In this document: positions 13,255 to 28,402 of the stretch, piece by piece
Numbering within the stretch: the first letter of the stretch is position 1
Layout of the letters: each line of letters starts with the position of its first letter
DNA from: a virus
DNA: 44,266 bases
Virus record (IMG/VR): IMGVR_UViG_3300022200_000097
Location: 1-44,266 of that record
Reading direction: 5' to 3' (one strand)
The notes under the pieces: generated by a model
What the model was told of the DNA's origin: nothing
Databases searched by the model: none
Seen by the model: only the letters and a program-made list of their open reading frames with translations
Translations under genes and position numbers: made by a program

Positions 13255-13646
13255 CGCTTCTTCTCCTCAAAGCATGCGAGCATGCCGGGATTCCAACGGG
13301 TAGACCAATGCCATTTGCCATTGCCCCAATCCCATGTCCGCCAGAACACTGCATCCTGAATAAACTTCGGGACTTTACTGGGACGTACGCCAACTAAGTG
13401 GTGGTAGCCAGCACGTGGGGCGTAAAGATCCCACGTAGTCTGGATGAATGAGTAAGCACCCGCGCCACCGGGGCCATCGGAACGGTAATTCCCACGGGAC
13501 TCCCGGTAAATAATGCATTTGCGGATCTCTTCTTTCTTCGGCATGTAGTAGGCAGTGCCCTTGTATAAGGAGTCAGGGATGTTGCTTGTGTCAATGTTTA
13601 CTGGGGTAAACATCAGTACAGAACTCAGTACCAACGCGGTGATCAT
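13251..13646 (-). CDS. Secreted transglycosylase/Rpf-like muralytic enzyme
   Basis: The protein has 131 residues with a hydrophobic N-terminus (MITALVLSSVLMFTP) that looks like a short signal peptide or anchor. The body fits the lysozyme-like fold of resuscitation-promoting factors: catalytic-type glutamate E49 in IYRESRGNY, then AGAYSFIQTTWDLYA. It would cleave peptidoglycan glycan strands. It is unusual to find it in the replication operon, far from the endolysin at 22131-22640. ATGA overlaps on both sides tie it to the protease and primase genes. Confidence 0.8.
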   Translation of the reverse strand: MITALVLSSVLMFTPVNIDTSNIPDSLYKGTAYYMPKKEEIRKCIIYRESRGNYRSDGPGGAGAYSFIQTTWDLYAPRAGYHHLVGVRPSKVPKFIQDAVFWRTWDWGNGKWHWSTRWNPGMLACFEEKKR

Positions 13647-14194
13647 TTCTTCTCCACGCTTACTTCATCGAAGGTGTAGTTGAATGCGGCACTGAACGGG
13701 TCAAGGGTTTCCGCAGCCCTCATGGCCTGCAAATGGTCAGCGCCAGTGATCAACGCACCCAGTGCGTACGCACCGCCTGTACCTATGCCGTATAGCCCAT
13801 GCATGCGGTTCATTACCGTGCCATCGGATTCGATTTGGAACACGAACCCTCGAACGATGATGATCATTTGGAAATCAACACCATCACTACCTAACTCGTA
13901 ACCTTCACGCCGCAATGCACGCTTCAAGTCAGGTACGAATGTGGTGATTAGCCAGTAGTAGGACCACTCTTCATCCACCTGCACGCTGGCTTCCTCGTCA
14001 GGCTGTGGTGGTTCCCAGTCGTATTGAATGTAGTCGCACAAGCGACCATTTCCTGCGGTTCCGTATGCCAAACTAAAGTTGCGGCAAATCTTTCGCGCTG
14101 TCTTACTGACAAAAGATTCAGACTCTGTTGAGACTTGGTAGTCCGCATACATGACGGCCCTACCCTCTTCTTGGATACCGATGATTGTTGTCAT
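13643..14194 (-). CDS. Proteasome beta/HslV-like Ntn protease
   Basis: The protein has 183 residues. After removal of Met1, Thr would be residue 1 (MTTIIGIQEE, compare HslV MTTIVSV), with Asp at mature position 17 (MYADYQ) as in the catalytic Asp17, a Lys before Ile (TARKI) near the Lys33 place, TAGNG, and GIGTGGAYALGAL matching HslV's IGSGGPYA. No propeptide is present with the ATG 14194 start, which has GGAGAGG before it; an upstream TTG is less likely. It could be a self-compartmentalised peptidase or modify the host proteasome; neither is shown. Confidence 0.85.
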   Translation of the reverse strand: MTTIIGIQEEGRAVMYADYQVSTESESFVSKTARKICRNFSLAYGTAGNGRLCDYIQYDWEPPQPDEEASVQVDEEWSYYWLITTFVPDLKRALRREGYELGSDGVDFQMIIIVRGFVFQIESDGTVMNRMHGLYGIGTGGAYALGALITGADHLQAMRAAETLDPFSAAFNYTFDEVSVEKK

Positions 14195-14535
14195 GCGCCT
14201 CTCCTCAACTTTGGTGGAACCCAACGACCACTGCCCGTACTTCGTGTACGTGCAGCACGATGCGTTGCCTTCATCTCTTTACCGATGCGTTCAGTGATGA
14301 ACGCGAGTGCTTCCCTGTATTCGAGTCGCTCCCGCAACATCACGATGTTCACTGCGGTTCCACCAGCGCCACATGCGTGGCAATGCCAGAGTCCTTTACC
14401 CACATTCATTGATGCGGATGCAACACGTTCTTCATGCACGGGGCATCGCGTGTTGCGTTCACCGCTACCAGTAACGGGTAAGTCGTAATGGTTTAACACT
14501 GCAACCATTACCTCTTCGAGTTGATCCGTGTCCAT
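14191..14535 (-). CDS. CHC2-type primase zinc-finger protein
   Basis: This protein of 114 residues has the ligands C31 and H34 (RCPVHEE) and C52/C55 (WHCHACGAGG), the CHC2 zinc ribbon that primases use to recognise template. The rest is helical with a basic C-terminal tail (RAARTRSTGSG). It lacks any catalytic core, which is supplied by the separate TOPRIM gene at 12610-13254. ATG 14535 lies in a TGATG overlap; an adjacent GTG is the alternative. Confidence 0.88.
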   Translation of the reverse strand: MDTDQLEEVMVAVLNHYDLPVTGSGERNTRCPVHEERVASASMNVGKGLWHCHACGAGGTAVNIVMLRERLEYREALAFITERIGKEMKATHRAARTRSTGSGRWVPPKLRRGA

Positions 14536-14897
14536 CACACCAACCCCTCCTCACGGAGAAGATCAATCAACGTGCCGATAGTGATGGTCACTCGACCATC
14601 AACCGTTCCCTTCTGTCGTGTCTTTGTGACCACGAGTGGGAAGGTTGCTTGCTTGTATTTCTTTTCATAATTGTCAGCCTCAACATCGGCTTGACGTAGG
14701 AAGTCACTCATGTTCGCGGCCTTCACGTTCTTTGCTTCGATCACAAGAACACGACCTGACTTCAAGGCGATAGACACATCACCAATGTCGTTGACTCCGG
14801 CTCGTGGTAGACGGCGGGCATGCAGCCCGCTGTCATTAAAGAAAGACTCAAGGTCAATCTCCCAACGACTACCCTTCGCCTTATTAGCCGCGCTCAC
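14535..14897 (-). CDS. Holliday-junction resolvase-like PD-(D/E)xK nuclease
   Basis: The protein has 120 residues. The start KGSRWEIDLESFF (conserved Glu), an AGVNDIGDVSI block with Asp, and VLVIEAKN (ExK) are the archaeal Hjc/phage resolvase pattern. It would cut branched DNA during recombination or before packaging. GTG 14897 overlaps the WhiB gene stop (GTGA). Confidence 0.85.
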   Translation of the reverse strand: MSAANKAKGSRWEIDLESFFNDSGLHARRLPRAGVNDIGDVSIALKSGRVLVIEAKNVKAANMSDFLRQADVEADNYEKKYKQATFPLVVTKTRQKGTVDGRVTITIGTLIDLLREEGLV

Positions 14898-15166
14898 AGT
14901 CGCGCACCAGCCGTGAACACTGCCTCAGGTGTAATCAAACTAATGTTGAGGCGGGAACGCACAGTGCGTCTCTCTGATGGTGTGGAGCCAGCCCAAATAC
15001 CGTGGCGTTCATGATGCAAAGCCCACTGGTAGCAATCAGTTAGCACTGGGCATGCCGCACATATCTTTCGGATGGTGGTCATGTCCGCTGGTTCATCGAT
15101 CACTGGGTAGAAAATTTCTGTCGGTATCCCAACACATGCTGCGTCTGTATAGTCCGGGTATTTCAT
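14894..15166 (-). CDS. WhiB-family Fe-S transcription factor
   Basis: The protein has 90 residues from ATG 15166, preferred because it makes an ATGA overlap and gives AGGAG correct spacing; an in-frame ATG lies two codons earlier. The four cluster ligands follow the Wbl spacing: C11, then C36-x2-C39-x5-C45, and the GIWAG turn follows, with a basic tail (SERRTVRSRLN) for DNA. WhiB proteins bind the host primary sigma factor and are confined to actinobacteria and their phages; phage WhiB can act as a dominant-negative regulator. Strong host indicator. Confidence 0.95.
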   Translation of the reverse strand: MKYPDYTDAACVGIPTEIFYPVIDEPADMTTIRKICAACPVLTDCYQWALHHERHGIWAGSTPSERRTVRSRLNISLITPEAVFTAGARL

Positions 15167-15984
15167 AGCCATTGTCTCCTAGTGTTTGCCATTTCAAGTT
15201 CTTCCTTGTTGTTGAAAAGGCACATGCGACTTGGATCGACAGCAACCCTGATGGGGTTCTCAGCACCGGGATCAGACACGCCATCCCGGTTCTTCACAGC
15301 AGCAACGAGATAGTTATCTCCACTCATCGCCACTGTAAGTATGAGTTCTGGTAGTTGACTCACCTTCCCCATTAATGCTTTGCGTGCAGCAGGGAACTCA
15401 GGTTTAGAATCATTCTCGCTAACGTGGTGCAGTACCACGACTGCGCTTTCAGTTTCACGCGCAAGTGAATGCAACGCTGACATAGCGTCACGCATGGCAG
15501 TCCACTCGTTGTCATGTGCGGCAGCAAGGTTCAGGAGATTGTCAACGACAATCAGATCAGGGGGGCAGCCGAAGAGTTCAACATATGCTTCTGTCTCTTC
15601 GTAAATATCATCCAATGTTGGATGAGGGTTAGGTTCGATACGTATTCTTTGTGAGAGTTCAATGAGTTCATCTTCAATCAAATATATTTCTTCTGTTTCA
15701 CGCATCGCTTTGACTTCGTCAACCGTGCGGTCAAGCAGTATCGCACTGGCACGGTTAACAATGGTTCCTTGATCAGAGTCAGCGTTGAAGTAAAGAACTC
15801 TCGTGTTCGATTTGATTGCGTACCAAAGACTGAGCATCGTCTTACCCCCACCGGGTTGACCGGCGATGACATGAAGTTGCCCCCGCCGAAACTTGATGGT
15901 CGCTGAGGAGAAAGCAGGCAGGATCTCTGGGAGATCCTGACCTGCCTCGCTCGTGGAGCGAACCACTTGTAGGAGTGACCGCAT
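15163..15984 (-). CDS. RecA/DnaB-like hexameric ATPase (replicative helicase candidate)
   Basis: The protein has 273 residues with Walker A GQPGGGKT (42-49), Walker B DLIVVDNLL (143-150) and the motif VVVLHHVSE with paired histidines typical of RepA/DnaB-type helicases. It lacks the N-terminal primase-binding domain of DnaB, like many small phage helicase-type ATPases. With primase genes in the same operon it is the best candidate for the replication helicase. Confidence 0.85.
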   Translation of the reverse strand: MRSLLQVVRSTSEAGQDLPEILPAFSSATIKFRRGQLHVIAGQPGGGKTMLSLWYAIKSNTRVLYFNADSDQGTIVNRASAILLDRTVDEVKAMRETEEIYLIEDELIELSQRIRIEPNPHPTLDDIYEETEAYVELFGCPPDLIVVDNLLNLAAAHDNEWTAMRDAMSALHSLARETESAVVVLHHVSENDSKPEFPAARKALMGKVSQLPELILTVAMSGDNYLVAAVKNRDGVSDPGAENPIRVAVDPSRMCLFNNKEELEMANTRRQWL

Positions 15985-15987
15985 GCC

Positions 15988-16494
15988 CTATCGCTTAGGG
16001 AAAATTGGTGGTGCTTCAGTAACGCCGGTTGGGAAAGGCTTCGGACCCTTAGCGGGATCGAACCATCCGGTGTATTGACTGCCAGCCTTAGAGATGCCCT
16101 TCTTGCGTGCGTATGCTCCGCGACCATCAGGCAATGCTGGTGCGTCAGGGTGACCGTACGTCCACGTGTTGCCCCACTTGTCAGTGATTTCCTCAACTGA
16201 TTGCTGAGTGACAGGCGCTGGTGGCTGAACGGTGTATCCGCCCACTTGCTCTTGCTGCACCACAGTGCCAGTGATTCCCCCGGCTTGCAGGTATGCCACT
16301 GCCTGATCAACTTCGTTCACTGGTGCAGCGACAGGTGCAGCCACAGGCTGACCTTCGATCACTGACTTCAACACGTGCATCTCTTGGATGCGTGCCTGCA
16401 TTTGTGTTGAATCATCAGCGCGACCCGTAAGCAGGTCATTGTTGCGACCAACCTTGATCGTGTAACTAAATGGTGATTCGGTTGTTGTACTCAT
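15988..16494 (-). CDS. Hypothetical protein with Ala/Pro linker, replication operon
   Basis: The protein has 168 residues. The N-terminal segment is followed by an Ala/Pro/Val-rich linker (about 50-60) and a C-terminal WGNTWTYGHPDAPALPDGRG and GSQYTGWFDP segment. The layout resembles accessory proteins found beside Cas4-like nucleases in actinophages; ssDNA binding is possible but no OB-fold motif is evident. ATG 16494 fits the GGAG spacing better than the ATG one codon before. Confidence 0.65.
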   Translation of the reverse strand: MSTTTESPFSYTIKVGRNNDLLTGRADDSTQMQARIQEMHVLKSVIEGQPVAAPVAAPVNEVDQAVAYLQAGGITGTVVQQEQVGGYTVQPPAPVTQQSVEEITDKWGNTWTYGHPDAPALPDGRGAYARKKGISKAGSQYTGWFDPAKGPKPFPTGVTEAPPIFPKR

Positions 16495-17165
16495 CATTTC
16501 TCCTTCGTTAGTTTTACTAATGGGTAGTTGGCAGATTTAGAACCATTCACTGCAACGCAGTAGTCAGAGAACGAGCAGTAACTACATGCGTCCGTGACGT
16601 TCGGCGGGAAGTAACCCGTCTCGATGGTTGCGTTCATTGCTGAGAAGCCATAATCGAAGTACTCCATTGACCACGGTGAAAGATCAGTGAGGTCGGAGAG
16701 TTCCCCTTTACGTGTCATGAAAAACGCACCCCACTTAGGTCGTATGCCATACACGCGTTCAACAGCGGATGCATACAAACCCATTTGGATCATGCCGAAA
16801 GGTGTACGTGAACCTGTCTTGTAATCCACCACAACAAAGTCATCACCGACTTTGTAAATGCAATCAACAATCACGCGGACAGGTGAACCACCAAAGGAAG
16901 TCTCCGACTTCCATTCGATACCGGGATGACCGTCAGGCATGGTGGCTATCTGCCACCCTGACTTCGCTAACCATTCCCCGTACATTTCAACTTGACGCAA
17001 GCCTTCGGTTTCCCAAAACGCAAGATCTTCACCTGCTGGTTTTGCTTTCGTCTTGCGCCCAGCCGTACGCCACTGCGTGATAGGCACACCAGTGCGATGT
17101 TCAAGTTCATCGATCTGGTTGGCAAGAATTGTTTGCCATTCAAGAGTCATTTCTTTAGAACTCAT
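16494..17165 (-). CDS. Cas4/RecB-like nuclease, C-terminal piece
   Basis: The protein has 223 residues and holds the PD-(D/E)xK core: D101 (VIVDCIY), D114 and K116 (VVVDYKTG), then a QMGLYA helix. Near the end is C194-x2-C197-x5-C203, the three C-terminal Fe-S ligands of Cas4 and AddB nucleases. The family's N-terminal piece, with the fourth cysteine, is missing here and is found at 17360-17554. It starts at ATG 17165, overlapping the end of the zinc-ribbon gene by 11 bases. Intact actinophage relatives are single proteins of about 270-300 residues, so this gene is split. Confidence 0.85.
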   Translation of the reverse strand: MSSKEMTLEWQTILANQIDELEHRTGVPITQWRTAGRKTKAKPAGEDLAFWETEGLRQVEMYGEWLAKSGWQIATMPDGHPGIEWKSETSFGGSPVRVIVDCIYKVGDDFVVVDYKTGSRTPFGMIQMGLYASAVERVYGIRPKWGAFFMTRKGELSDLTDLSPWSMEYFDYGFSAMNATIETGYFPPNVTDACSYCSFSDYCVAVNGSKSANYPLVKLTKEK

Positions 17166-17367
17166 AGTCGAACTCCATTGCTTGAGGATCATCAATCGGG
17201 GTGGGGACAGTGACGGGTGATTCGCATGCAACGCAGTAACCGTTGGCCGTGTACCAGACGATTTCGTACTCATCGAACTGCGCAAGGATCTTGAAAACTT
17301 TCCCTCCACAGTTGAGGCACACTTCCGAAGGGATACCTCGCGTGTTTATACCGCTTGTGTCAGACAT
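17155..17367 (-). CDS. Zinc-ribbon protein inserted between the two nuclease pieces
   Basis: The protein has up to 70 residues, with C17-x2-C20 and C45-x2-C48. ATG 17367 overlaps the upstream stop by eight bases. A GTG 15 codons in (VCLNCGG) would be the natural start of a transcript from promoter P5, which lies across the 5' end of this frame. Three different reading frames are used by the N-piece, this gene and the C-piece, so simple read-through cannot join them. It looks like a small gene inserted into the nuclease gene. Confidence 0.7.
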   Translation of the reverse strand: MSDTSGINTRGIPSEVCLNCGGKVFKILAQFDEYEIVWYTANGYCVACESPVTVPTPIDDPQAMEFDYEF

Positions 17368-17374
17368 GTTGCAT
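17345..17374 (-). promoter_or_regulatory. Promoter P5 inside the nuclease insertion
   Basis: On the - strand: ATGCAA (-35, 17374-17369), 18-bp spacer beginning CATGTCTGACAC, TATAAA (-10, 17350-17345). Spacer length and the CATGTCnGACAC core are the same as in P4, and similar to P1-P3, which lie on the other strand about 8 kb away. It overlaps the start codon region of the zinc-ribbon gene. Confidence 0.6.
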
Positions 17375-17554
17375 TCGTTCCTCATGAAATCGGTAGTTCA
17401 AAGCCTCAATATGCTCATGAACAGCACTGCCTGCAGCCAAGTAAAGGGCTGGTTGTTCCGGTACTTTCGCTACCTTCGACAGGTAGTACTGGTGGGCGCA
17501 TTTGTAGAACGTAGACAGTTGTGAATACGAACGATGCGGGGGTATTTTACTCAC
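17360..17554 (-). CDS. Cas4/RecB-like nuclease, N-terminal piece
   Basis: The protein has 64 residues. RSYSQLSTFYKCAHQYYLSKV with C19, then GSAVHEHIE with H46, is the N-terminal signature of Cas4/AddB-type nucleases: first Fe-S cysteine and the conserved GxxxH helix. The protein then stops, and the catalytic part is a separate gene at 16494-17165. GTG 17554 overlaps the preceding stop by eight bases. Function would require assembly of the two pieces. Confidence 0.8.
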   Translation of the reverse strand: MSKIPPHRSYSQLSTFYKCAHQYYLSKVAKVPEQPALYLAAGSAVHEHIEALNYRFHEERMQHV

Positions 17555-18103: not shown

Positions 18104-18559
18104 TTAACCAGCCTTGGCTATCAGATCAGGGCTACGCACAAGACCTGTGTCTTGTGCCCTACGGGGAACATAGAAGAAACCTTCGGGGGTGTTGTAGTCA
18201 TAATGAACCACTAACCCCTTATCTTCCAGTTCCTTTTTCCATTTGTTAAACCGCTTCTTTTCACCGGCATTCACTTTACCTGCGGATTCGTGGTCGGCAT
18301 TGAGCCTTGCCCCGATCCTGAGCATCGTGATTTGGTATGCCGAATTATGTTTCAGGGCTACAGGTGACCACGGAATATAGTCATCGTAACGTAAACGCTT
18401 GGTGTATCCAGCACGCGACAAAGCCCCCGAAACAGACGTACGTGAAACAGGCTCACCGATTTCGTCAGCAATTCTTTTGGCTATTTCTTCATGGGTCATG
18501 CCGTTCTCGACCCACCCAGCCATGATTGATTCTGATGGTAATTTCCTTCTTGCACTCAT
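18104..18559 (-). CDS. HTH DNA-binding protein, candidate repressor of the lysogeny module
   Basis: The protein has 151 residues. The N-terminal half (MAGWVENGMTHEEIAKRIADEIGEP, then SRTSVSGALSRAGY) forms a helix-turn-helix of the kind that reads DNA; the middle is helical and basic (AGEKKRFNKWKKELEDKG), and the C-terminus has short strands (VVHYDYNTPEGFFYVP), so a winged-helix arrangement is likely. ATG 18559 follows AAAGGAAGG. It is divergent from the integrase with dyad sites between, the usual place of a phage repressor or Cro/Xis; which one cannot be told. Confidence 0.75.
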   Translation of the reverse strand: MSARRKLPSESIMAGWVENGMTHEEIAKRIADEIGEPVSRTSVSGALSRAGYTKRLRYDDYIPWSPVALKHNSAYQITMLRIGARLNADHESAGKVNAGEKKRFNKWKKELEDKGLVVHYDYNTPEGFFYVPRRAQDTGLVRSPDLIAKAG

Positions 18560-18704: not shown

Positions 18705-18716
18705 CTTTAGTTGTTG

Positions 18717-18745
18717 TTGCAATGCAACTTCTTTTCCACTAGTCT
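18717..18745 (+). promoter_or_regulatory. Integrase promoter, leaderless type
   Basis: TTGCAA (18717-18722), 17-bp spacer, TAGTCT (18740-18745), seven bases to ATG 18753. No ribosome binding site lies before that ATG, so transcript start and start codon would coincide. Confidence 0.55.
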
Positions 18746-18752
18746 TTGCAAC

Positions 18753-19742
18753 ATGAGAGATAAAAAAATCGGGGACGTTATACCTGACTACTTGCAATGG
18801 AGGAAACGGCAAGGGTTCGCGCACAACACGACCCGCAACGACGAGTCCGCATTAGGCTTCCTTACACGCACCCTGTCACCAGAAAGATTAGTGTCGGATA
18901 TCTACCCATCGGACATCGCTGATGTCCTCGAAGCCTGCCTTGATAAGCGGCAACCATCATCAGTGAACGCAGTTCACGCCACCCTGTCAGGGTTCTTCCA
19001 ATGGTGTCGGGCAAACCGAATCATTGGCCCTGACCACGACCCCATGCTGGGTGTTCGCTACCGGAAAGTGCCCGTTAAAGAACGCCAGCGGCTACGACTC
19101 GACGAGTTCGATTCGTTCCTTGACGTGGCCCCTGACCCACGTCATCGCATCATGTCAGCCCTAGGTTTATTCCTGTTCCTTCGCTCCAGCGAAGCAGTGG
19201 CCCTGCGTGTCAAGGACGTAGATCTCATCGGTGGAACTATCGCCGTAACCATCCAGAAAACAAACGACTTCGACCGCATGCCATTGAGCAGTGAACTGGA
19301 CGGGGAGTTGCGGATATGGCTTACCCATTACCAAAGCGTCATGGGGAATCTTGATCCGAATTGGAGGCTTGTCCCACCCGTGGCCCGTGGCTTCAGGGAC
19401 AGTAACTGCTACAACCCAACCGGCAAAATCAGCAAACCAGAAGACCTCATCAAACGCTGTCTCGACGCTTACGGTTGGGAAGACACCCATTGGGAAGGCA
19501 TGCATTGCCTTCGCCGATCAGGGGCACGAGCGTGGTTCGACTCCCTCGTGGAGATGGGAACCGACGGCGCGTTACGACTAGTACAAACGCAACTTCATCA
19601 CCGAAGCGTTACAATGACGGAGAGGTATTTAGGTTTGACGGGGGATCGGATAAACCGGGATAAGCGTTTGAAAGGTCAAGCGATGTTCCCTATCTCAACT
19701 CAAAAAAATGTCATTTCACTCAAGAGAGTGGCTGAGAGGTGA
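18753..19742 (+). CDS. int: Tyrosine recombinase (integrase)
   Basis: The protein has 329 residues. The N-terminal core-binding domain (residues 1-105) is followed by the catalytic domain with R144 (LFLFLRSSEAVAL), K169 (TIQKTND), H251-x2-R254 (MHCLRRSG), a histidine of LHH at 282-283 and the nucleophile Y292 (MTERYLGL). All catalytic residues appear present, so it should be active. ATG 18753 is chosen over an upstream start because of the promoter position. It would integrate the phage at an attB; I could not identify attP or a tRNA fragment nearby. Confidence 0.93.
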   Translation: MRDKKIGDVIPDYLQWRKRQGFAHNTTRNDESALGFLTRTLSPERLVSDIYPSDIADVLEACLDKRQPSSVNAVHATLSGFFQWCRANRIIGPDHDPMLGVRYRKVPVKERQRLRLDEFDSFLDVAPDPRHRIMSALGLFLFLRSSEAVALRVKDVDLIGGTIAVTIQKTNDFDRMPLSSELDGELRIWLTHYQSVMGNLDPNWRLVPPVARGFRDSNCYNPTGKISKPEDLIKRCLDAYGWEDTHWEGMHCLRRSGARAWFDSLVEMGTDGALRLVQTQLHHRSVTMTERYLGLTGDRINRDKRLKGQAMFPISTQKNVISLKRVAER

Positions 19743-26566: not shown

Positions 26567-28402
26567 TTAGACCACACTCCATACTGATCCGCTAGGAATC
26601 GTTATTGTTGCTGTTGCTTCAATCTCTACAGGCCCGGCGCTCATCGCGTTCTTGTCTGTACTAATCGTGTAATCAGTTGTCACAGCAACATCGTTTTCAT
26701 AAAACACTTGATCAGCGCCACCACCAGTAGCACCACCAAGACCAGCAGTAGCAGAAGCAATCGCAGCATCCGCCTCAGCAATCGTGTACGTGTTCGCCAC
26801 ATTGAACGAAGCAAACGCAACAACAGTCAACGTGTCACTCACCGCAGCGCCACTCGCCAGAGTGACACTGTTCACTCCGGTCGTGTAATCATCACCGGGA
26901 TTAAGAAGCACACCGTTGAGGAACACTTGAATCAAACCAGCAGTAAATGACATGCTCACAGCATTGTCATCCACCCCAGAGAACACTGTTTGTGCAGCGG
27001 TAGCCGTGTACTCGTACGTGACAATTGAAGCAACAGATGCGGCAGAAGCCTTCAACCAGCCAGCACCATCGAAGACATACATGCCGATGACTTCAGAAGA
27101 CCCAGTATTCAGATAGAACAATGCACCCTGTAGTAAGGCATCGCCATCATTGTCAAGTGTCGGTGCAACCGACTTAGACCCAAGGTAACGATCATCGAAA
27201 GAATCTAAGGCTGTCGCTGCAGCAGCAGCAGAGTTAGCCGAATCCACCGAAGACGAAGAGGCAGCACTGGCAGAAGCGGCTGCACCGCTAGCACTCGTAG
27301 CAGCGTTAGATTCGCTCGTGGCTGCAGCGGTCTCAGACGCTGCAGCGTTAACCTCACTGGTAGCAGCAGCAGCCTCAGAGGCTGCTGTATTCGATTCCGA
27401 AGTGGCAGCAGTAGAAGCCGAAGAGGCGGCATTGCCTTCACTCGTGGAAGCATTCGATGCACTCGTTGACGCGGCACTCGCAGACGAAGCCGCATTCGTT
27501 TCACTAGTACCAGCGGCACTCTCAGAAGCAGCAGCGTTAGATGCTGATGTCGCTGCAGCCGACTCCGATGCACCCGCTGCGCTATCACTGGAGGCTGCAG
27601 CAGCGGCACTGCTTGCAGCATTAGATGCACTGGTGGCAGCGTTAGAAGCCTGAGTGGATGCAGTCGATGCGCTACCAGCAGCAGCAGTAGCACTGGAAGA
27701 AGAACTGGACGCACTCACTGCTGCACCAGTCTCCGCAGTCTCCGCATTGGATTCAGCGATCTCTGCTGCAGCCTGCGCTGCTTCAGCAGCCACCTGTGCA
27801 GTCTCAGCGTTGACCTCAGCGGTCTCCGCATTCGTTTCAGCAAGTTCAGCAGCAACCCTCGCCGCAACCGCTGCAGTCTTAGCAGCCTCAGCCAACGTCA
27901 GTTGGCTAGTAACCCCAGTCTCAACAAAGTTCTTGGTAGCAGCATCCTGCGCAGAAGCAGGATCAGCAAGACCAGTGACCCTGAAACCACCAGCGGCGAG
28001 GTTCCCACCAAGAGTCTTATTCGTCAACGACTGAGTTGTTGTTGTGCCAACAACAGCAGCACCAGCGCCAATGTCATGCACACCATTAGATGCAGCCTCA
28101 TGCGTACGGAAATCAGTGAAGTCCTTCGCAGACACGCCATGTTCCACTGACGTACCAGCAGAATGCGCACGCGCAGAAGTACCATCGAAACCACGAGTGA
28201 CCACAAGTGACGCGCCAACCAGCCCGGTCACCGTAACGATTTCCTCGTTCGCTGAATCCTTCTCAAGGATCAGCGTGAACGGGTACTGTGATGGGAAGTT
28301 TGTGCTAGAGGCAACAATCACCTCAACATCAGTAGAAGAAACAGACGCAGCAAGTGTCGTTCGGACAGCAGTACTGGAATAGTAACGTGCAGGAGTTCCC
28401 AT
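26567..28402 (-). CDS. Large tail fibre with Ala/Ser repeat stalk
   Basis: The protein has 611 residues. Residues 1-150 form an attachment domain; about 165-390 is a stalk of Ala/Ser/Glu/Asn repeats with heptad-like spacing (ETNAETAEVNAETA, then SASNAATSESAAATS units), likely a trimeric coiled coil. The C-terminal part has FDDRYLGSK and FLNGVLLNPGDDYT, both frequent in T7-type fibres. It would link the small receptor-binding proteins to the tail. Confidence 0.85.
   Translation of the reverse strand: MGTPARYYSSTAVRTTLAASVSSTDVEVIVASSTNFPSQYPFTLILEKDSANEEIVTVTGLVGASLVVTRGFDGTSARAHSAGTSVEHGVSAKDFTDFRTHEAASNGVHDIGAGAAVVGTTTTQSLTNKTLGGNLAAGGFRVTGLADPASAQDAATKNFVETGVTSQLTLAEAAKTAAVAARVAAELAETNAETAEVNAETAQVAAEAAQAAAEIAESNAETAETGAAVSASSSSSSATAAAGSASTASTQASNAATSASNAASSAAAAASSDSAAGASESAAATSASNAAASESAAGTSETNAASSASAASTSASNASTSEGNAASSASTAATSESNTAASEAAAATSEVNAAASETAAATSESNAATSASGAAASASAASSSSVDSANSAAAAATALDSFDDRYLGSKSVAPTLDNDGDALLQGALFYLNTGSSEVIGMYVFDGAGWLKASAASVASIVTYEYTATAAQTVFSGVDDNAVSMSFTAGLIQVFLNGVLLNPGDDYTTGVNSVTLASGAAVSDTLTVVAFASFNVANTYTIAEADAAIASATAGLGGATGGGADQVFYENDVAVTTDYTISTDKNAMSAGPVEIEATATITIPSGSVWSVV
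27200..27850. repeat. Imperfect tandem repeats coding for the fibre stalk
   Basis: Short degenerate repeats of codons for Ala, Ser, Glu and Asn recur through this stretch (gcagcagc-, gcactcgt- and tcagaag-type units). Because they lack stop codons in several frames, long spurious ORFs appear on the + strand here. Such tracts can expand or shrink by recombination. Confidence 0.7.

Follow-up and report, generated by a model that had tools for sequence, protein, structure and literature searches.

A PF12705-family phage nuclease encoded in two separate genes, with conserved cysteines on both products

Two nuclease pieces and a four-cysteine gene overlap head to tail

The window, that is, the whole stretch of DNA analysed here (44,266 nucleotides; IMG/VR virus record IMGVR_UViG_3300022200_000097, positions 1 to 44,266), carries three minus-strand genes that overlap head to tail: one for the N-terminal piece of a nuclease (N piece), one for a small protein with four cysteines (ribbon gene), and one for the C-terminal piece (C piece).

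17360..17554, minus strand: gene for the predicted N-terminal nuclease subunit, 64 aa, GTG start; C19 at 17498-17500, H46 at 17417-17419
17360..17367, minus strand: 8-nt stop-start overlap of the N gene and the ribbon gene, sequence ATGTCTGA
17155..17367, minus strand: ribbon gene between the subunit genes, four-cysteine protein (CxxC...CxxC), 70 aa, ATG start
17155..17165, minus strand: 11-nt stop-start overlap of the ribbon gene and the C gene, sequence ATGAGTTCTAA
16494..17165, minus strand: gene for the predicted catalytic C-terminal nuclease subunit, 223 aa, ATG start
16863-16865, 16824-16826, 16818-16820 and 16785-16787, minus strand: D101, D114, K116 and Q127 of the C piece
16584-16586, 16575-16577 and 16557-16559, minus strand: C194, C197 and C203 of the C piece

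The N piece contains C19 and a GxxxH motif (G42-S-A-V-H46), and the C piece contains a PD-(D/E)xK core with D101, D114-Y-K116 (DxK) and Q127, followed by C194-x2-C197-x5-C203. The three genes of the window copy are read in three different frames. A preliminary description had outlined these ORFs, their overlaps, the motifs and the ribbon gene in the middle; sequence and profile matches agree with it on all of these points.

The pieces match adjacent parts of one nuclease family

Both pieces score over the Pfam curated cut-off for PF12705, on adjacent and non-overlapping parts of the profile: positions 3-49 for the N piece (E 4.5e-6) and 93-246 for the C piece (E 2.5e-10). When the whole record was scanned, no further PF12705 match was found beyond these two. 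The exonuclease profile phrog_1870 (313 positions) is divided likewise, with the N piece on 12-65 and the C piece on 77-300 (E 4e-50). In addition, the N piece matches phrog_69 (E 3.7e-10) and the C piece matches Cas_Cas4 (E 7e-5). Scores against TIGR00372, the equivalog model of CRISPR-associated Cas4, were 35.8 and 14.2 bits, under its 65-bit cut-off.

The residues expected of such a nuclease are kept almost without exception. C19 and H46 are invariant in 39 of 39 distinct N relatives, the catalytic set of the C piece (D101, D114, K116 and Q127) is present in at least 76 of 77 distinct relatives, and C194, C197 and C203 are found in all 77. These nine residues align across one-chain homologues and both groups of split sequences described below, with one one-chain row gapped at C19. 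The arrangement of one N-terminal and three C-terminal cysteines is thus complete, though spread over two genes. PF12705 and Cas4-like nucleases are otherwise defined as one polypeptide, whereas the pieces lie on separate ORFs in every locus that holds both. As this one-chain definition concerns organisation and not homology, the pieces are a split variant of the PF12705 family rather than an ordinary member. One C piece (locus L017, 2973-3734) has ∼9 extra residues inserted immediately ahead of the DxK strand (around LPPWTDATADT).

The closest one-chain counterparts are the Cas4 exonucleases of actinophages (phrog_1870; D29 gp69, Sheen gp72, Nancinator 56 and Thermobifida P318 orf15), which belong to the same family and have the same residues in the same motif order. 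They differ in consisting of one protein, about 244-318 aa long, and share ∼30% identity with the C piece.

The split is conserved and both pieces are under purifying selection

Searching IMG/VR with the C piece, the N piece and the ribbon gene yielded about 165 fetched loci with 107 distinct gene triplets (the window group). Both pieces were present in 167 loci, a count that includes overlapping fetches and the window itself; in all 167, N and C lay on separate ORFs flanking a ribbon match, and none had an unsplit gene. The N gene was always just upstream of the C gene in the loci read, and a C gene lacking its N gene was found, in the loci of either group, only at contig ends. A nucleotide search for the window stretch among cultured phages gave no match, nor did a search of bacterial genomes with the C piece.

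Median pairwise dN/dS in the window group was 0.019 for the N piece (computed on the ungapped block, one long outlier being present) and 0.11 for both the ribbon gene and the C piece. This range, 0.02-0.11, indicates strong purifying selection, under which the N piece evolves even more slowly than the C piece. Protein distances of the N and C pieces are correlated, with r 0.90 in the window group and 0.61 in the sister group introduced below. In one locus (L081, 845-1210, on the same contig as L113), a stop lies inside the C ORF and the match continues to 1549, which reflects either an error in sequencing or decay of this one copy.

A sister group is split at the same place without the ribbon gene

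Two cultured phages of Ca. Planktophila, LanE43AprF5 (OX376641) and LanE43AprE7 (OX376640), which were isolated and lyse their host (PMC10202952), encode an N piece of 61 aa and a C piece of 202 aa as separate ORFs that overlap by 17 nt, with nothing between them. A search with the LanE43 C piece gave 305 relatives, of which 80 were fetched and counted together with OX376641. All 77 of these sister-group loci with both pieces were split, the N and C genes mostly overlapping and usually with nothing between; the other four lacked an N match, their contigs beginning too near the C gene to include one. Selection is strong here as well (median dN/dS 0.066 for N and 0.10 for C). The comparison with homologous loci that the preliminary description had proposed thus found the nuclease divided in every locus of both groups that held both pieces.

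Five sister-group loci hold other genes between N and C. A single unrelated gene of ∼110 aa is present in L242 (2682-3011) and L248 (2661-3005), and two unrelated genes (107 and 218 aa) are present in L214 (2045-3017), whose spacing recurs in L215 and L217. The presence of whole genes in L242, L248 and L214 shows that the N piece stands as an independent gene. Different genes have come to occupy the junction, which looks as if it tolerates or attracts insertions.

Assembly error and decay, the two weaknesses that the preliminary description had foreseen, were both looked for, and neither was found. Many independent metagenome contigs and the two cultured phages show the split, which rejects an assembly error, and the catalytic and cysteine positions are conserved at dN/dS 0.02-0.11, which rejects decay with the stop in L081/L113 as the exception.

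The alignment places the break at one and the same loop in both groups, just after the GxxxHxxxE helix. A tree built with 12 one-chain homologues has a branch, with support 100/98, that sets all of the split sequences apart on one side. When two very long-branched one-chain proteins were added, one of them fell among the split groups, and a single split clade was not rejected (AU p 0.39). One ancient split is the simplest reading.

These observations bear directly on the second reading offered by the preliminary description, a nuclease broken by insertion, in which the ribbon gene would have interrupted a nuclease that persists as a partly functional remnant. The ribbon gene does lie exactly between the pieces throughout the window group, as an insertion would require. 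Nevertheless, in the sister group, the two cultured phages included, the break falls at the same loop, and the N and C genes either adjoin directly or flank unrelated genes; one of those cultured phages, LanE43AprF5, has its ribbon homologue elsewhere. Insertion of the ribbon gene was therefore rejected as the cause of the split. Neither piece shows a sign of decay, and the tree allows a single origin of the split. The remnant is thus already largely refuted, and we regard it as highly improbable.

The middle gene encodes a putative zinc ribbon

The name of the middle gene rests on four cysteines that form two CxxC knuckles (C17-x2-C20 and C45-x2-C48) and are invariant in 62 of 62 distinct sequences; the zinc-ribbon fold is putative. 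Profile matches were sub-threshold at best (e.g., Phage_zn_bind, E 0.038), and the AlphaFold model of the protein alone was poor (pLDDT 55.6). The free-standing homologue of LanE43AprF5 (L176) lies at 26775-26951 on the other strand, ∼5 kb from the nuclease genes and near a WhiB-like gene.

In the window group, the nuclease might include the ribbon protein as a third subunit, for example, as a DNA-binding or assembly factor. Such a role would fit its constant place between the subunit genes (167 loci), its four invariant cysteines, the purifying selection on it, and the fact that its distances track those of N and C (r 0.90-0.94). Linked neighbouring genes would give the same correlation, however, and the ribbon gene is missing from the sister-group junction and located elsewhere in LanE43AprF5. 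A third subunit is therefore possible, though on balance unlikely; what can be said is that the ribbon protein is a separately translated neighbour of the nuclease.

A start codon for the next gene is retained at varying positions

The start codon of the next gene is present in all relatives, and its place (-1 to -41), type and frame vary. The ribbon gene starts, among others, with ATG at -32, -5 or -1, TTG at -8, or GTG at -32, and the C gene starts with ATG at -5 to -20; an ATG close to the ribbon stop was found in 107 of 107 distinct relatives. Both junctions of the window group are +1 in 102 of 107 loci. In the remaining five, the first junction is in the other frame (+2) and N and C share a frame, so that the three frames noted in the preliminary description apply to the window copy and most relatives but not to these. 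At the direct junctions of the sister group, C is invariably shifted by +1 from the frame of N, and the stop is TAA or TGA.

Overlapping ORFs, direct junctions that are invariably +1 with TAA or TGA, and +1 at both junctions in nearly all window-group loci would also be expected if programmed ribosomal frameshifting at the overlaps additionally produced a full-length nuclease, either N-C or N-ribbon-C. Several features argue against this. Five loci have a +2 junction, a usable start for the next gene is retained in all loci although its place moves between -1 and -41, and no slippery motif common to the groups emerged when the junction sequences were compared. Moreover, one or two whole genes separate N and C in L242, L248 and L214, which frameshifting could not join. 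The moving start codons, the five other-frame loci and the whole genes between the pieces thus favour start-stop coupled separate translation, and we consider an additional frameshift product improbable.

The two pieces are predicted to form one Cas4-family fold

The joint fold was modelled with AlphaFold2 (41-row alignment) on locus L006, in which N and C are in one frame and the stop was read as a residue; the chain modelled was N, about 50 out-of-frame residues as an artificial linker, and C. The joined model reached pLDDT 81 and pTM 0.77, with N and most of C at pLDDT 79-96 and the linker below 50. Foldseek returned the Cas4-family proteins CtACE1 and MaACE1 as best matches (E 2e-8, 349 alignment columns), followed by Dna2 and AdnA; the RMSD to the best matches was large (6-8 Å), for which the linker is probably the reason. 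CtACE1 and MaACE1 (PDB 9iab and 9iac), which are Argonaute-associated, were also the best sequence match among solved structures; they differ from the split pair in being one chain and share 12-13% identity with it. Predicting both pieces together, as had been suggested from the outset, thus gave a confident Cas4-family model, which supports the placement of the N piece with the C piece in one fold, the covalent link in the model helping the docking.

The model also bears on whether the N piece belongs to the nuclease at all. It might have a separate role, for example, as a DNA-binding or regulatory peptide, with the C piece working alone or with some other, three-cysteine metal arrangement; the C piece does hold the classical D, DxK and Q residues, and other genes can stand between N and C. 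Yet the N piece retains exactly the residues of the nuclease N-terminus (C19 and GxxxH), changes even more slowly than C, is always found just upstream of it in the loci read, and packs with it in the AlphaFold2 model, and no C gene was found without an N gene except at contig ends. A separate role of the N piece appears to us quite improbable.

The genes lie in a replication module

Three neighbours of the nuclease genes are informative:

18104..18559, minus strand: repressor gene, upstream (phrog_3929, E 3.4e-25)
15988..16497, minus strand: conserved downstream neighbour, 169 aa, 4-nt overlap with the C gene
15163..15984, minus strand: DnaB-like helicase gene (phrog_243, E 1.6e-63)

The DnaB-like helicase next door places the nuclease in a replication/recombination module. 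The order repressor, small gene, exonuclease is the same as in mycobacteriophages with a one-piece enzyme (Sheen, Anthony and Camperdownii); like the split pair, the one-chain mycobacteriophage exonucleases lie between the repressor and the DnaB-like helicase. The 169-aa neighbour is in the same position in members of both split groups (L001, L002, L242, L214 and LanE43AprF5). Its window copy had no family match in a profile scan. The version in LanE43AprF5 matches PF25690 (Mycobacteriophage L5/D29 gene 49 protein) and has a cysteine/histidine motif at its end, which is missing from the window copy. No CRISPR genes and no Argonaute were found among the neighbouring genes scanned.

Further genes of the window were noted in passing. 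The replication module includes a protein related to HslV/proteasome-type peptidases (13643-14224; phrog_1040, E 1.4e-20), and a DnaG-type CHC2 zinc finger is encoded as a separate 115-aa gene (14191-14538); the primase, like that of Streptomyces phage Ponzi, may thus be another enzyme spread over more than one gene. A WhiB-like regulator (14894-15172; PF02467) points to an actinobacterial host, and an integrase gene on the plus strand (18711-19742), together with the repressor, suggests a temperate phage.

Discussion

The locus likely encodes a two-polypeptide exonuclease of the Cas4/RecB type, in which the products of start-stop coupled genes fold together and share a four-cysteine metal cluster between the subunits. 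A two-subunit nuclease with a shared cluster had been the first reading of the preliminary description; the conserved split, the ligands, the catalytic residues, the selection on both parts and the model of the joined pieces speak for it, and from these we infer the physical complex, the cluster itself, the nuclease activity and the role discussed here.

The 64-aa subunit would supply the N-terminal helices, the GxxxH motif and the first cysteine, and the 223-aa subunit the remainder of the PD-(D/E)xK active site together with the three other cysteines. Both would be translated from overlapping genes by start-stop coupling and then fold together, a heterodimer being the most likely arrangement. 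A single cluster, most likely [4Fe-4S], would be bound jointly by C19 on the small chain and C194, C197 and C203 on the large one. Heteromeric Fe-S proteins whose cluster ligands come from two different polypeptides are exemplified by PsaA/PsaB of photosystem I and by BchN/BchB; their likeness to the split pair is that the cluster bridges subunits, as they are not nucleases and are evolutionarily unrelated. The nuclease domains of AddB and Cas4 likewise have a PD-(D/E)xK core and bind one cluster through four cysteines, one N-terminal and three C-terminal; this cluster, called a staple in AddB, is needed for stability (PMC3466216). There, all ligands are on one chain, whereas in the split nuclease they are on two genes, and the staple would become a clamp between subunits. 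By analogy with relatives, which are known with [4Fe-4S], [2Fe-2S] or Zn, including DUF3799 (PMC3466216; PMC4176176), the metal may be any of these three.

Going further, the nuclease might be assembled only when a [4Fe-4S] clamp joins the two separately translated subunits; the clamp could also be a switch of nuclease assembly that depends on redox state or iron, and in the window group the ribbon protein would add a third component specific to that lineage. This elaborate version is speculative and, we think, rather unlikely. As to its job, the enzyme would probably trim DNA ends beside the phage helicase in replication or recombination. This role in DNA end processing follows from the gene position and the family; the one-chain exonucleases that actinophages encode at the same place in the genome would share it.

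In the open literature searched, a coverage outside of which most subscription papers lie, no description of a split Cas4-type or phage exonuclease was found, and the word "split" is absent from a Cas4 phylogenomics survey. The two-gene build is a new form of a known nuclease family and a rare way to make such an enzyme. Annotation pipelines would miss it, the small piece appearing as a hypothetical protein and the large one as a truncated exonuclease. In Cas4, AddB and Dna2, the cluster ties together both termini of a single chain, which depends on it for stability; with these termini on different proteins, the function of the cluster would become directly testable by adding or omitting the small subunit. 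A nuclease domain of the Cas4 kind can thus be stably divided throughout a large phage group whose hosts are abundant freshwater bacteria.
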